A DNA stretch of 64,000 bases from a beta proteobacterium KB13 (GTDB lineage: Bacteria; Pseudomonadota; Gammaproteobacteria; Burkholderiales; Methylophilaceae). Location: NCBI GenBank assembly GCA_000156155.1, contig DS995299.1, positions 1,045,400 to 1,109,399 of the forward strand. The letters run 5' to 3'. The notes beneath the pieces were generated by a model. That model made no database searches. It saw nothing but the letters and a program-made list of their open reading frames with translations, and was not told where the DNA came from. The translations under genes were made by a program, and so were the position numbers. The number at the start of each line of letters is the position of its first letter. Position 1 is the stretch's first letter. Positions 20,906 through 52,570 of the stretch are shown piece by piece.

Positions 20906-20930
20906 AAAAAAAAGCCGGTATAACCGGCTT
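20906..20930 (-). terminator. Intrinsic terminator of the alpha operon (after rplQ)
   Basis: On the minus strand AAGCCGGT and ACCGGCTT pair in an 8-bp stem with a 3-base loop, followed directly by eight T (six beyond the stem). It lies 23 bases after the rplQ stop and is the clearest Rho-independent terminator in the window. It closes the ribosomal block that begins near 53 kb. Confidence 0.92.
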
Positions 20931-20952
20931 CTATTCAAAAAAAAAAATAGAC

Positions 20953-21573
20953 TTATTTTTTCTCAGCTGCTGGTTTAGCTGCTTTTTTCTCAGCTGCTGG
21001 TTTAGCTGCTTTTTTCTCAGCTGCTGGTTTAGCTGCTTTTTTCTCAGCTGCTGGTTTAGCTGCTTTTTTCTCAGCTGCTGGTTTAGCTGCTTTTTTCTCA
21101 GCTGCTGGTTTAGCTGCTTTTTTCTCAGCTGCTGGTTTAGCTGCTTTTTTCTCAGCTGCTGGTTTAGCTGCTTTTTTCTCAGCTGCTGGAGCATCTTCGA
21201 CTTTTTCTGCTACCAGCGGTCTATCAACAAGTTCAACGAATGCCATTGGAGCATTGTCACCTTTTCTGAAACCACATTTTAATATTCTTAGATAACCACC
21301 ATTACGTGTTTTATATCTTGGTCCTATCTCAGCAAATAATTTCGCGACTACTTCATCATTTCTTAATTGAGCAAAGGCTTTTCTCTGATTATGAACAGAA
21401 CTCTCTTTTGCTAATGTAATTAATGGCTCAGCATACTTACGAAGTTCTTTTGCTTTTGGCAGTGTTGTTCTAATAACCTCATTAGCAAGCAAAGATGCAG
21501 CCATATTTTTAAACATTGCTTTACGATGACTGCTTGTTCGATTTAATTTTCTATGACTGTTTCCGTGTCTCAT
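20953..21573 (-). CDS. rplQ: 50S ribosomal protein L17 with long repetitive C-terminal tail
   Basis: Residues 1-120 are a normal L17 ([52 protein letters not shown]). E. coli L17 is 127 residues, but this protein has 206. The extra 86 residues are a tail in which PAAEKKAAK repeats about nine times up to the stop codon. The tail is highly basic, low in complexity and predicted to be disordered and surface-exposed at the exit-tunnel side of the 50S subunit. Its function is unknown. The gene is last in the alpha operon, 14 bases after rpoA. Confidence 0.96.
20956..21189 (-). repeat. Tandem 27-bp repeat inside rplQ, 8.7 copies
   Basis: Eight full copies of a 27-base unit (20956-21171) and an 18-base partial copy (21172-21189) lie head-to-tail without spacers. 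By eye all copies are identical at nucleotide level. The unit length is a multiple of three, so each copy adds nine residues (AAKPAAEKK) in frame. Identity at synonymous positions implies recent expansion or homogenisation by slippage or recombination. Confidence 0.97.
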
Positions 21574-25752: not shown

Positions 25753-26187
25753 TTATGATTCTATTTTCCCGCCAGCAGCCTCGATTGCTTCTTTAGCTCC
25801 CTTGGTAACACCCAAACCAGAAATGGTATACTTATTTTTAACTTCACCGGATAAAAATATTTTTACTGACAAAGCTAACTCAGATACGAGGTTTTCTTTT
25901 TTAAGAGTTAATAAATCAATTTTTCCAGCAGGTAATTTATTTAACTCTGAAGTTCGGATTTGATCCTTATAATCTTTTTGTGAAGACTTGAAACCTCTTT
26001 TAGGAAGTCTTCTTTGAATTGGCATTTGACCACCTTCAAAACCTACAGCTACAGAACCTCCAGCTCTAGACTTTTGACCTTTATGGCCACGACCTGCTGT
26101 TTTACCAAACCCAGAGCCAATACCTCTTCCAACTCTTTTAGCTGATGGATTTGATCCTTCTGATGGTTTAAGTGTATTAAGTTTCAT
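25753..26187 (-). CDS. rplO: 50S ribosomal protein L15
   Basis: The 144-residue protein begins [41 protein letters not shown], the glycine-rich RNA-binding arm of L15, followed by [19 protein letters not shown]. One base separates it from rpmD. Confidence 0.98.
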
Positions 26188-29923: not shown

Positions 29924-30193
29924 TTAATTAACTTGCGGAGCTTTTGATAAAACTTTAGTAACCACCCATGTTTTCGTTTTTGACATTGGTTTAGACTCAG
30001 CAATTTCAACTAAATCGCCTTCACCAATTTCATTTTTTTCGTCATGAGCATGAAATTTATTGGACAGTTTTATCACTTTACCAACGACTGGATGCTTTAC
30101 TCTTCTTTCAACCAGCACTGTGACTGTCTTGTCCATTTTGTTACTTAGAACCTTGCCTTGCATAGTTCTAATATTTTTTTGAGCTTCAACCAT
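29924..30193 (-). CDS. rpsQ: 30S ribosomal protein S17
   Basis: The 89-residue OB-fold protein has [34 protein letters not shown] and [32 protein letters not shown]. It is the last gene of the S10 operon; the next gene, rplN, is 135 bases away behind its own promoter. Confidence 0.98.
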
Positions 30194-30814: not shown

Positions 30815-31663
30815 TTAAGCCTCGTTATTATCTTTGCCTGATTCTTCATTTGAAGACTCTGTGGTGTCAGCTTTATCCGTAACTACAGGTTCCTCTTTCA
30901 CTTCAGTTTTCTTCGTAGCAGCTTTTACTGTTGTTTTTTTTGCAGCTGGTTTTGCTGCTTTTTTTGCCGGTTTATTGTCATCTAATGATTTATCGCCAAC
31001 AACATCTTTTGTAATTGGTGATGCAACTTTATCATCTTGAAATACTTCACCTTTATAAATCCAAACTTTAATTCCAATAATTCCGTATTGTGTTTGAGCT
31101 CTTGCTACACCATAGTCAATATCTGCTCGAAGTGTATGAAGCGGAACTCTTCCTTCACGGTACCATTCTGATCGGGCAATTTCGATACCATTAAGTCTTC
31201 CAGAACTCATAATTTTTATGCCCTGAGCGCCTAATCTCATTGCATTCTGCATCGCTCTTTTCATAGCTCTTCTAAACTGAACACGCTTTTCAAGCTGTTG
31301 AGCAATACTCTGAGCAATCAAAGTAGCATCGATTTCAGGTTTTCTTACTTCTTCAATATTAAGCTGAACAGGAATACCCATTAATCCTTGAAGGTCAGAA
31401 CGAAGATTCTCAATATCCTCACCTTTTTTACCAATAACAATACCTGGTCTGGCTGTCATTATTGTTACTTTCGCATTTTTTGCTGGACGCTCAATGATGA
31501 TCTTACTCACTGCGGCATTAGCTAGCTTTTTATTTAAGAATTCTCTTACTTTAATATCATTATTTAAAAAAACAGGGAAATTCTTAGTACTAGTAAACCA
31601 TTTAGACGACCAGTTCTTTTGAACACCTAAACGAAAACCAATTGGATTAATTTTTTGACCCAT
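30815..31663 (-). CDS. rpsC: 30S ribosomal protein S3 with extended low-complexity C-terminus
   Basis: Residues 1-210 are normal S3: [22 protein letters not shown], the KH domain near residues 39-107 with [15 protein letters not shown], and [20 protein letters not shown]. The protein has 282 residues, about 50 more than E. coli S3. The added tail starts Lys/Ala-rich ([15 protein letters not shown], about residues 231-245) and ends acidic ([15 protein letters not shown]). Its first part resembles the repeat unit in the L17 tail of this genome. S3 lines the mRNA entry channel. Confidence 0.97.
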
Positions 31664-35186: not shown

Positions 35187-36377
35187 TTACTCAACAATCT
35201 TTGCAACAACACCCGCACCAACGGTACGGCCACCTTCACGAACAGCGAAGCGTAAACCTTCTTCCATCGCGATCGGAGCAATCAATGTTGCTGTAATCGA
35301 TACGTTGTCGCCTGGCATTACCATTTCTGTACCTTCTGGTAACTCCACAGCGCCTGTTACGTCTGTTGTTCTAAAGTAGAACTGAGGACGATATCCATTA
35401 AAGAATGGAGTGTGTCGACCACCTTCATCTTTACTTAAACAGTAAATTTCAGCAGTAAATTTTGTGTGTGGTGTAATTGAACCTGGTTTCGCAAGCACTT
35501 GGCCACGTTCAACATCTTCACGTTTTGTACCTCTTAAAAGCACACCCACGTTGTCACCTGCTTGACCTTCGTCAAGTAACTTACGGAACATTTCTACACC
35601 AGTACATGTTGTTTTTTCAGTTGCTTTGATACCAACGATTTCAATCTCTTCGTTGACCTTAATAATGCCACGCTCTACACGGCCGGTTACCACAGTACCT
35701 CGACCAGAGATAGAGAACACGTCCTCTACTGGCATCAAGAAGGTACCATCCACTGCACGCTCTGGAGTTGGGATGTATGAGTCAAGTGCTTCCGCAAGTT
35801 TAAGAATTGCTGGCTCACCAATCTCAGATTGGTCACCTTCAAGAGCTTTAAGAGCAGAACCCATGATAATTGGAGTGTCATCACCTGGGAATTCGTATTT
35901 ATTTAATAAGTCACGAACTTCCATTTCTACTAATTCGAGTAATTCTTTGTCATCCACCATATCAGCTTTGTTAAGGAATACAACGATGTATGGCACACCC
36001 ACTTGGCGTGATAAAAGGATGTGTTCACGAGTTTGTGGCATTGGGCCGTCAGCTGCAGAACATACGAGAATCGCACCATCCATTTGAGCAGCGCCGGTAA
36101 TCATGTTTTTCACATAATCCGCGTGGCCTGGGCAATCAACGTGAGCATAGTGACGAGTTTCAGTTTCGTATTCAACGTGAGCAGTATTAATCGTAATACC
36201 ACGAGCTCTTTCTTCAGGAGCTGAATCAATCGCTGCATAATCTTTAGCTTCACCACCGTGTTTCTTAGTCAGAATCGTTGTGATCGCAGCTGTTAATGTT
36301 GTTTTACCATGATCCACGTGGCCAATTGTGCCGACGTTAACATGGGGTTTGGTACGCTCAAATTTACCTTTAGCCAT
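35187..36377 (-). CDS. tuf: Elongation factor Tu, copy 1
   Basis: EF-Tu delivers aminoacyl-tRNA to the ribosome as a GTP complex. The 396-residue protein has the G-domain motifs [25 protein letters not shown] and NKADMVDD, then domains 2 and 3 ending in [15 protein letters not shown]. This copy is in its ancestral str operon place, 18 bases after fusA. The protein is identical to copy 2 at 51380-52570. Confidence 0.99.
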
Positions 36378-51379: not shown

Positions 51380-52570
51380 TTACTCAACAATCTTTGCAAC
51401 AACACCCGCACCAACGGTACGGCCACCTTCACGAACAGCGAAGCGTAAACCTTCTTCCATCGCGATCGGAGCAATCAATGTTGCTGTAATCGATACGTTG
51501 TCGCCTGGCATTACCATTTCTGTACCTTCTGGTAACTCCACAGCGCCTGTTACGTCTGTTGTTCTAAAGTAGAACTGAGGACGATATCCATTAAAGAATG
51601 GAGTGTGTCGACCACCTTCATCTTTACTTAAACAGTAAATTTCAGCAGTAAATTTTGTGTGTGGTGTAATTGAACCTGGTTTCGCAAGCACTTGGCCACG
51701 TTCAACATCTTCACGTTTTGTACCTCTTAAAAGCACACCCACGTTGTCACCTGCTTGACCTTCGTCAAGTAACTTACGGAACATTTCTACACCAGTACAT
51801 GTTGTTTTTTCAGTTGCTTTGATACCAACGATTTCAATCTCTTCGTTGACCTTAATAATGCCACGCTCTACACGGCCGGTTACCACAGTACCTCGACCAG
51901 AGATAGAGAACACGTCCTCTACTGGCATCAAGAAGGTACCATCCACTGCACGCTCTGGAGTTGGGATGTATGAGTCAAGTGCTTCCGCAAGTTTAAGAAT
52001 TGCTGGCTCACCAATCTCAGATTGGTCACCTTCAAGAGCTTTAAGAGCAGAACCCATGATAATTGGAGTGTCATCACCTGGGAATTCGTATTTATTTAAT
52101 AAGTCACGAACTTCCATTTCTACTAATTCGAGTAATTCTTTGTCATCCACCATATCAGCTTTGTTAAGGAATACAACGATGTATGGCACACCCACTTGGC
52201 GTGATAAAAGGATGTGTTCACGAGTTTGTGGCATTGGGCCGTCAGCTGCAGAACATACGAGAATCGCACCATCCATTTGAGCAGCGCCGGTAATCATGTT
52301 TTTCACATAATCCGCGTGGCCTGGGCAATCAACGTGAGCATAGTGACGAGTTTCAGTTTCGTATTCAACGTGAGCAGTATTAATCGTAATACCACGAGCT
52401 CTTTCTTCAGGAGCTGAATCAATCGCTGCATAATCTTTAGCTTCACCACCGTGTTTCTTAGTCAGAATCGTTGTGATCGCAGCTGTTAATGTTGTTTTAC
52501 CATGATCCACGTGGCCAATTGTGCCGACGTTAACATGGGGTTTGGTACGCTCAAATTTACCTTTAGCCAT
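51380..52570 (-). CDS. tuf: Elongation factor Tu, copy 2
   Basis: This 396-residue EF-Tu is identical in sequence to copy 1 (35187-36377), with the same G motifs. It lies in the conserved tRNA Thr-Tyr-Gly-Thr - tuf - secE position of tufB in other proteobacteria. Its upstream region starts with the last codons of fusA, showing that it was overwritten by copy 1. Confidence 0.99.

Follow-up and report, generated by a model that had tools for sequence, protein, structure and literature searches.

Our analysis revealed that the gene for ribosomal protein bL17 in this genome ends in a perfect in-frame tandem repeat, that its relatives across the genus carry C-terminal tails of like composition, that the underlying arrays turn over and are homogenized, and that similar extensions are spread over several other proteins, namely ribosomal proteins and the RNA polymerase factor DksA. 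As judged from the sequences, the evidence favors protein-level selection on the composition of the L17 tail. The explanation that we prefer, to which we give about an even chance, is that a translated, disordered, Lys-rich tail on bL17 is one of a set, combining in-frame turnover, selection on composition, and loose contact with polyanions.

RESULTS

A perfect in-frame minisatellite at the 3′ end of rplQ

The window (i.e., the whole stretch of 64,000 nucleotides that was analyzed) belongs to a genome assembled as a single contig of 1.334 Mb (G000), whose closest named relatives are Methylophilaceae and related MAGs, including LSUCC0401. The features at L17 are as follows.

20910..20932, minus strand: intrinsic-terminator-like hairpin plus T run, ~20 bases past the L17 stop codon (10-pair stem then T tract; consensus match only)
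20953..21573, minus strand: rplQ, ribosomal protein bL17, 206 aa (open reading frame; PF01196, E 4.1e-39, residues 20-116)
20956..21189, minus strand: 27-bp x 8.7 array, unit CCAGCAGCTGAGAAAAAAGCAGCTAAA, encoding PAAEKKAAK (Tandem Repeats Finder, codons)
21190..21225, minus strand: 12-residue linker between core and array, divergent in sequence among species (alignment)

Both PF01196 (133.8 bits, cutoff 27) and TIGR00059 (158.2 bits, cutoff 70.05) identify the protein as bL17; its score against the "sunset domain" variant NF051448 (138.7 bits) falls short of the threshold of 280. The conserved core stops at residue 116, the end of the Pfam domain. Tandem Repeats Finder reported the array at 20956-21189 with a period of 27, 8.7 copies, 100% matches, no indels, and a score of 468, placing it at the top of 33 rows for the 64-kb window (runner-up score, 52). 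Eight full identical units are followed by a six-codon partial unit, and synonymous positions are identical across copies, as expected from the initial annotation, which had described a perfect 27-bp in-frame repeat tail on L17. Composed of tandem units of 3n bp, the array is an in-frame protein-coding minisatellite (VNTR), so that the claim of a minisatellite inside an essential ribosomal gene stands; encoding P, A, E, and K only (residues 129-206), it is also a low-complexity ribosomal protein tail. The tail had been described as 86 residues long and as spanning 20953-21189. It does exist and the array does end at 21189, but the tail measures 90 residues past residue 116 (12 of linker and 78 of array), and 20953-20955 is the stop codon, the array starting at 20956. 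Because a terminator-like hairpin sits so close behind the stop codon, L17 probably closes its operon.

Elsewhere, the window holds two EF-Tu genes with identical translations (35187-36377 and 51380-52570); paired EF-Tu genes with identical products are a common arrangement.

An assembly artifact, by which the repeat might have been explained away, is not at issue in any simple sense, given that the genome is one contig and that the same unit occurs in other copy numbers elsewhere. As a general cause it was ruled out by the presence of such arrays in several single-contig genomes. The L17 copy numbers given here are those of the assemblies, with one genome per species. Among 25 L17 loci of the genus, three lie on contigs that stop within the tail repeat and two on contigs that stop short of it; two more contigs start in an L17 array, one of which is the far side of one such break. 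Such arrays may break assemblies.

L17 tails keep their composition across the genus

Sampling covered 31 genomes of the genus, the window's own included, and an L17 match was obtained in 26 of them (i.e., all except G005, G010, G012, G016, and G020, an array end being located afterwards in G020). The split L17 of G009 was left out; 25 loci were read, 20 of them with a stop codon ("closed" tails). The 20 closed tails have 37 to 90 residues. Every one carries a net positive charge (+1 to +15), and past their first three residues the 20 together contain 318 Lys and 0 Arg among 1,089 residues; by contrast, the L17 cores contain 297 Lys and 326 Arg (24 loci). In four of the 20, the net charge is merely +1 or +2, because Glu is frequent.

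Tandem arrays, with units of 18 to 30 bp in ~2 to 9 copies and of variable sequence, make up 16 of the 20 closed tails; comparison of related L17 proteins thus uncovered the tails of like composition and different unit number that had been proposed as a check on the initial annotation. The unit is PAAEKKAAK in seven species, and the other nine array tails are built of AKPAAAKKE, AKPAAKKE, AKPAVKKE, TKPAAVKKE, KKPAAKKAET, or KPAEVVES followed by KPAAAK. The remaining four tails (G002, G004, G017, and G028) are K/E and non-repetitive. In being Lys/Ala/Pro-rich, Arg-poor tandem repeats, the L17 arrays resemble AlgP or histone H1-like tails.

We placed eight tail labels of our own (seven repeat-unit types plus non-repeat) on a tree built from the L17, S3, and DksA cores, with tails excluded and outgroups represented by L17 alone. 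Seven changes were required, i.e., the minimum possible for eight labels. The PAAEKKAAK species form a single group (support 93/100), as do those with non-repeat tails (100/99); of the 25 inner branches of this tree, only 8 pass both support thresholds.

Arrays turn over in frame and are homogenized

Counting partial units, PAAEKKAAK is present in 9 copies in G000, 8 in G001, 6 in each of G003 and G006, 5 in each of G007 and G008, and 3 in G011. Copy number, suspected from the start to be variable, accordingly differs between species, as in a VNTR. These arrays are internally identical, G001 excepted, in which units 1, 4, and 7 have Ser in place of Ala; this three-unit (81-bp) step is the pattern expected under block duplication. 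In the L17 array of G007, two synonymous differences (CCG for CCA and GCA for GCT) are common to all copies, and the DksA array of G006 shows three synonymous differences relative to G000, G001, and G003 in all of its full copies. Since such differences are common to every copy, the arrays must have been homogenized, in agreement with what had been supposed from the window alone. Uniformity is lower elsewhere, e.g., in the L17 array of G019, in which two copies have GCT and two have GCG.

For 24 L17 loci, all Tandem Repeats Finder rows within tails have 3n periods. Five non-3n rows lie outside the tail arrays, two of which touch the stop or last codons of non-repetitive loci (L022 and L026). 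A C-terminal non-3n array would just rewrite the tail, so the exclusive occurrence of 3n periods speaks for some importance of the tail's reading frame. By general reasoning, homogenization alone should leave the neutral divergence rate of a unit unslowed. Across the PAAEKKAAK clade, the commonest unit is without amino acid change, and the adjoining linker has diverged.

The 27-bp unit is letter-identical between diverged species

Between G000, G001, G003, and G006, on the one hand, and G008 and G011, on the other, same-residue codons of the L17, S3, and DksA cores differ at 43 to 46%. Across that split, the commonest 27-bp unit is letter-identical, i.e., 0 synonymous differences were observed and 3.4 to 4.6 expected (P 0.0013 to 0.013 per pair, the eight pairs being non-independent, on one split, and effectively one comparison). 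The array end of G020 has the same 27-bp unit as both groups. No significant shortage of synonymous differences was detected in G007 pairs or in pairs of two other L17 unit types, and in DksA, where the comparison could be made, the divergence of units is at the expected level (3 differences, against 2.2 to 2.4 expected, for G006 versus three species). Protein-level selection alone does not explain unit identity over diverged species; the PAAEKKAAK unit may be subject to nucleotide constraint or to the exchange of arrays from one species to another. Recent long-tract exchange between species was ruled out, the linkers and downstream flanks of G000 and G008 being different. We likewise rejected intragenomic copying of the L17 unit, a DNA search of the genome with three units having returned, besides L17, just 77 to 83% matches (S3 and the 104-aa protein described below).

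Similar extensions occur on other ribosomal proteins and DksA

Three further genes of the window are concerned.

25753..26187, minus strand: rplO, L15, 144 aa, tail-free in the window
29924..30193, minus strand: rpsQ, S17, 89 aa, tail-free in the window; basic N-terminal extension in the sub-clade with non-repetitive L17 tails
30815..31663, minus strand: rpsC, S3, 282 aa, K/A/T/P-rich C-terminal tail; tandem in some sister species

In 24 closed rows of the genus, S3 continues for 70 to 106 residues past its last core motif, with a tail charge of -1 to +8 and some Arg. Tandem Repeats Finder detected S3 copies of 27, 36, 54, or 60 bp in several species, and one 9-residue copy is present in G001, G003, and G006 and absent from G000. 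S3 frames in the rest of the family are mostly 239 to 262 residues long; two other genera also have longer ones (269 to 275 in g14 and 276 to 289 in g9), so this genus is not alone in having a long S3. Of 28 DksA loci, 24 have an N-terminal array according to Tandem Repeats Finder (a weak one in two cases), and the four other rows start too late to show one. DksA of the window's genome (G000:C1:1196428 onward) carries an AKPVAKKAV-type N-terminal array (27 bp x 8.7), and both unit and copy number of DksA vary over the genus.

S17 bears a basic N-terminal stretch of 47 to 75 residues in 5 of 25 readable species, i.e., the four with a non-repetitive L17 tail and G010, in which there is no L17 match. 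This extension is K/A/P/T-rich and tandem in several of the species; L29 was suspected at first of hosting this second array, and the host gene proved to be S17. For L15, G002 has a KPAAKKESA array and G004 a tail of 50 residues; the extensions in G030, G023, and G018 are shorter (23 to 24 residues) and not repeated. The contigs of G017 and G028 stop ~4.2 to 4.3 kb upstream of L17, near the expected L15 position. In G004, moreover, L5 has an acidic tail of KPAEEV repeats and L23 has N-terminal KKVAEKKVAV repeats. Given the neutral or acidic nature of this L5 tail and of a few tails on S3, and the presence of Arg in some of the latter, positive charge and absence of Arg are not the rule at every carrier, and charge is not the whole story.

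The length of most other proteins of the cluster is constant to within a few residues across the genus; in this survey, some differences are start-codon choices, G029 has several apparent frameshifts, G024 has runs of N, and G013, G017, G023, and G028 are partial. A KPAA-type query, biased because such tails served as its source, returned 34 matches spread over 20 of the 31 genomes, assigned by coordinates to L17 (18), DksA (12), S17 (2), L15 (1), and S3 (1), a few rows overlapping or reading another frame of the same array; 11 genomes were matchless though several carry such arrays, so these numbers are no census. Two further searches of the window's own genome retrieved L17, DksA, and a 104-aa KPAAKK protein only. 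The latter consists mostly of KPAAKK repeats (L005 1384-1698; G000:C1 about 929070-929264), and its neighbors are presumably dihydroorotase-like and YggS-like genes. Against the HC2 histone-like profile (cutoff, 40 bits), DksA with its array scored 30.5 bits and the 104-aa protein 25 bits, both below the cutoff, and L17 gave no match at E 0.01, so L17 is not assigned to HC2.

L17 tails outside the genus

In the other genera of Methylophilaceae, L17 stop-to-stop frames have 128 to 148 residues (match in 29 of 30 genomes). Tails are 12 to 19 residues long in eight loci from other genera of the family, including three from Methylophilus/Methylotenera, and 6 to 34 residues in the remaining named loci (64 of 71 parsed, seven of the 80 in the named set being left out). 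In a sample of the phylum, PF01196 matched in 285 of 299 genomes; 20 long-frame loci were chosen among the matches listed, one was left out, and the L17 tail was net negative in 18 of the 19 parsed. KPAA-like L17 tails also occur beyond the genus. A distant proteobacterial family with genomes of ~2 Mb (f69) has Ala/Glu/Lys L17 tails of 51 to 69 residues in five of six loci, with the word KPAAKK in three of these tails and a net positive charge in one.

DISCUSSION

Neutral minisatellite drift, one of the possibilities raised initially, would mean that the exposed C terminus of the last gene of an operon tolerates slippage and that K/A/P words are slippage-prone in an A-rich genome. This is compatible with the position of L17 just before a terminator-like hairpin, with the wide range of tail lengths (37 to 90 residues), and with the existence of a sub-clade with non-repetitive L17 tails; a general preference for Lys over Arg is also reported for streamlined members of the family in the excerpted text of PMC6794327. 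Such a preference could explain part of the Arg absence, but the same L17 cores use more Arg than Lys. For L17, pure drift is disfavored, and we consider it unlikely, since a positive sign of charge and freedom from Arg past the junction in 20 of 20 closed tails, together with exclusively 3n periods, hold while the linker diverges, and since the commonest unit is without amino acid change across diverged species right next to that linker. In addition, matches to the KPAA query, for all its bias and incompleteness, are confined to ribosomal proteins and DksA, and the end of an operon cannot account for the N-terminal extensions of S17, L23, and DksA.

That the tail is a local arm at the tunnel exit, acting on nascent chains, trigger factor, or SRP, appears distinctly improbable. 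Similar tails are found on S3, S17, L15, L5, L23, and DksA, and the sub-clade without L17 repeats has them on S17, a small-subunit protein. These carriers have no common location at the nascent-chain exit, and they lend no support to a role tied to that site, near which the initial annotation had placed the tail. On the other side, the excerpted text of PMC12752688 has trigger factor binding transiently near bL17 in E. coli and puts L23 at the vestibule, and L23 does have an N-terminal repeat in G004. Because the carriers comprise small- and large-subunit proteins as well as DksA, general loose contact with polyanions is likelier than a single contact at the exit. We regard it as very improbable, and slightly more so, that the 27-bp unit is itself conserved as a nucleotide-level element, via array exchange between species or a role of the DNA or RNA, e.g., as eight antisense terminator-like hairpins. 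The letter identity across the split described above and in G020 argues for such an element. So do eight weak terminator-like hairpins then T6, one per full unit, on the plus strand of the array (20964-21170), and an RNA fold that beats 100 shuffles (z -3.16, for a stretch that includes the terminator-like hairpin, and with repeats tending to fold well). These plus-strand hairpins are, however, produced by GCAGCT plus AAAAAA codons. Neither G007, with its two synonymous differences in all copies, nor four other lineages (L016, L017, L027, and L032) have any, so an antisense terminator array was ruled out as a general function. The expected divergence of the DksA units and the differing linkers and flanks of G000 and G008 also speak against the element, the latter with respect to recent long-tract exchange.

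In the explanation that we prefer, the array would encode a disordered, Lys-rich, Arg-free basic tail on bL17, as a member of a set made up of L17 and S3 (in all genomes read), DksA, and, in one sub-clade, S17, L15, L5, and L23. The tails would be lengthened, shortened, and homogenized as whole 3n-bp units slip or are exchanged unequally, and selection would maintain composition (for L17, Lys, Ala, Pro, and Glu, a net positive charge, and an open frame), leaving lengths and motifs free to vary. Protein-level selection is suggested by the constant sign of charge, the absence of Arg, the kept frame, the unit unchanged beside a diverging linker, and the recurrence on nucleic-acid machinery. The tail would then most likely act as an arm in the manner of the AlgP KPAA tail or a histone H1 tail, making loose, multivalent electrostatic contacts that need no fixed binding site. 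By these contacts, the surface of the ribosome, and DksA when on RNA polymerase, would engage polyanions, e.g., mRNA, rRNA, nucleoid DNA, or polyphosphate. Translation and retention of the tail, its disorder, polyanion binding, and any benefit are our inferences. A strong polycation is argued against by the frequency of Glu, which such a tail would not need.

More tentatively, and with less than even confidence, we envisage a free-living lineage with a changing coat of Lys-rich disordered tails, in which arrays would arise at the termini of ribosomal proteins and DksA, homogenize, vanish, and be replaced, the chemistry being kept even as its carriers and sequences change; within the clade of the window, array DNA may also cross between species too diverged elsewhere to recombine. 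Ribosomal proteins are usually treated as near-constant in length within a genus, and most in this gene cluster fit that expectation. Here, a few components of the essential ribosome change through the turnover of minisatellites, and do so in genomes that are otherwise pressed to lose DNA, which offers a testable case of selection on tail composition rather than sequence and raises the question of why several ribosomal proteins and an RNA polymerase factor gain similar chemistry.

Two aspects are already known, namely long bL17 chains in structures and low-complexity stretches of L17 and S3 as a class. The long chains come from ribosomes that we take to be those of mycobacteria, Cutibacterium, and Bacteroidota. 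They measure 160 to 199 aa (e.g., 5o60, 5v7q, 8crx, 7jil, and 9i5t) and, compared by length only, share with the present protein an L17 fold plus a C-terminal extension of some 40 to 80 residues. As to low-complexity regions (LCRs), the excerpted text of PMC6821194 names L17 and S3 among those bacterial ribosomal proteins for each of which 20 or more orthologs contain an LCR; about half (402/822) of bacterial ribosomal LCRs are at least 70% Ala and/or Glu, and Lys reaches at least 30% in 9% (77/822). The tails described here are likewise Ala/Glu/Lys-rich and located on L17 and S3, whereas nucleotide repeats, copy-number turnover, homogenization, and movement between proteins within a genus are not described in those excerpts. 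Within the open-licence PMC literature, our searches turned up no publication that deals with the turnover of tandem repeats in bacterial ribosomal proteins, be it L17 or any other, and the terms "ribosomal protein" and "tandem repeat" are absent from the main text of two papers on Methylophilaceae, one of them PMC6794327.

By analogy, the closest functional parallels of the L17 tail may be AlgP and histone H1 tails (excerpts of PMC9239181 and PMC11764897). Pseudomonas AlgP and PhaF carry Lys-Pro-Ala tandem repeats that are predicted to be disordered, have been likened to histone H1, and vary in number among clinical isolates; the L17 repeats vary in number likewise, between species. In the same excerpts of PMC9239181, the even spacing of granules depends on the KPAA domain of AlgP, and binding of KPAA peptides to DNA in vitro is reported. 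AlgP, however, is a dedicated nucleoid and granule protein, whereas the tails described here belong to the ribosome and DksA; their L17 unit also exceeds that of AlgP in length and includes Glu. The histone H1-like extensions of RpS6 and RpL23a, said in the excerpts of PMC11764897 to be independently evolved, are similarly histone-like tails on ribosomal proteins; they are eukaryotic, with mosquitoes named, whereas the L17 tail is bacterial.
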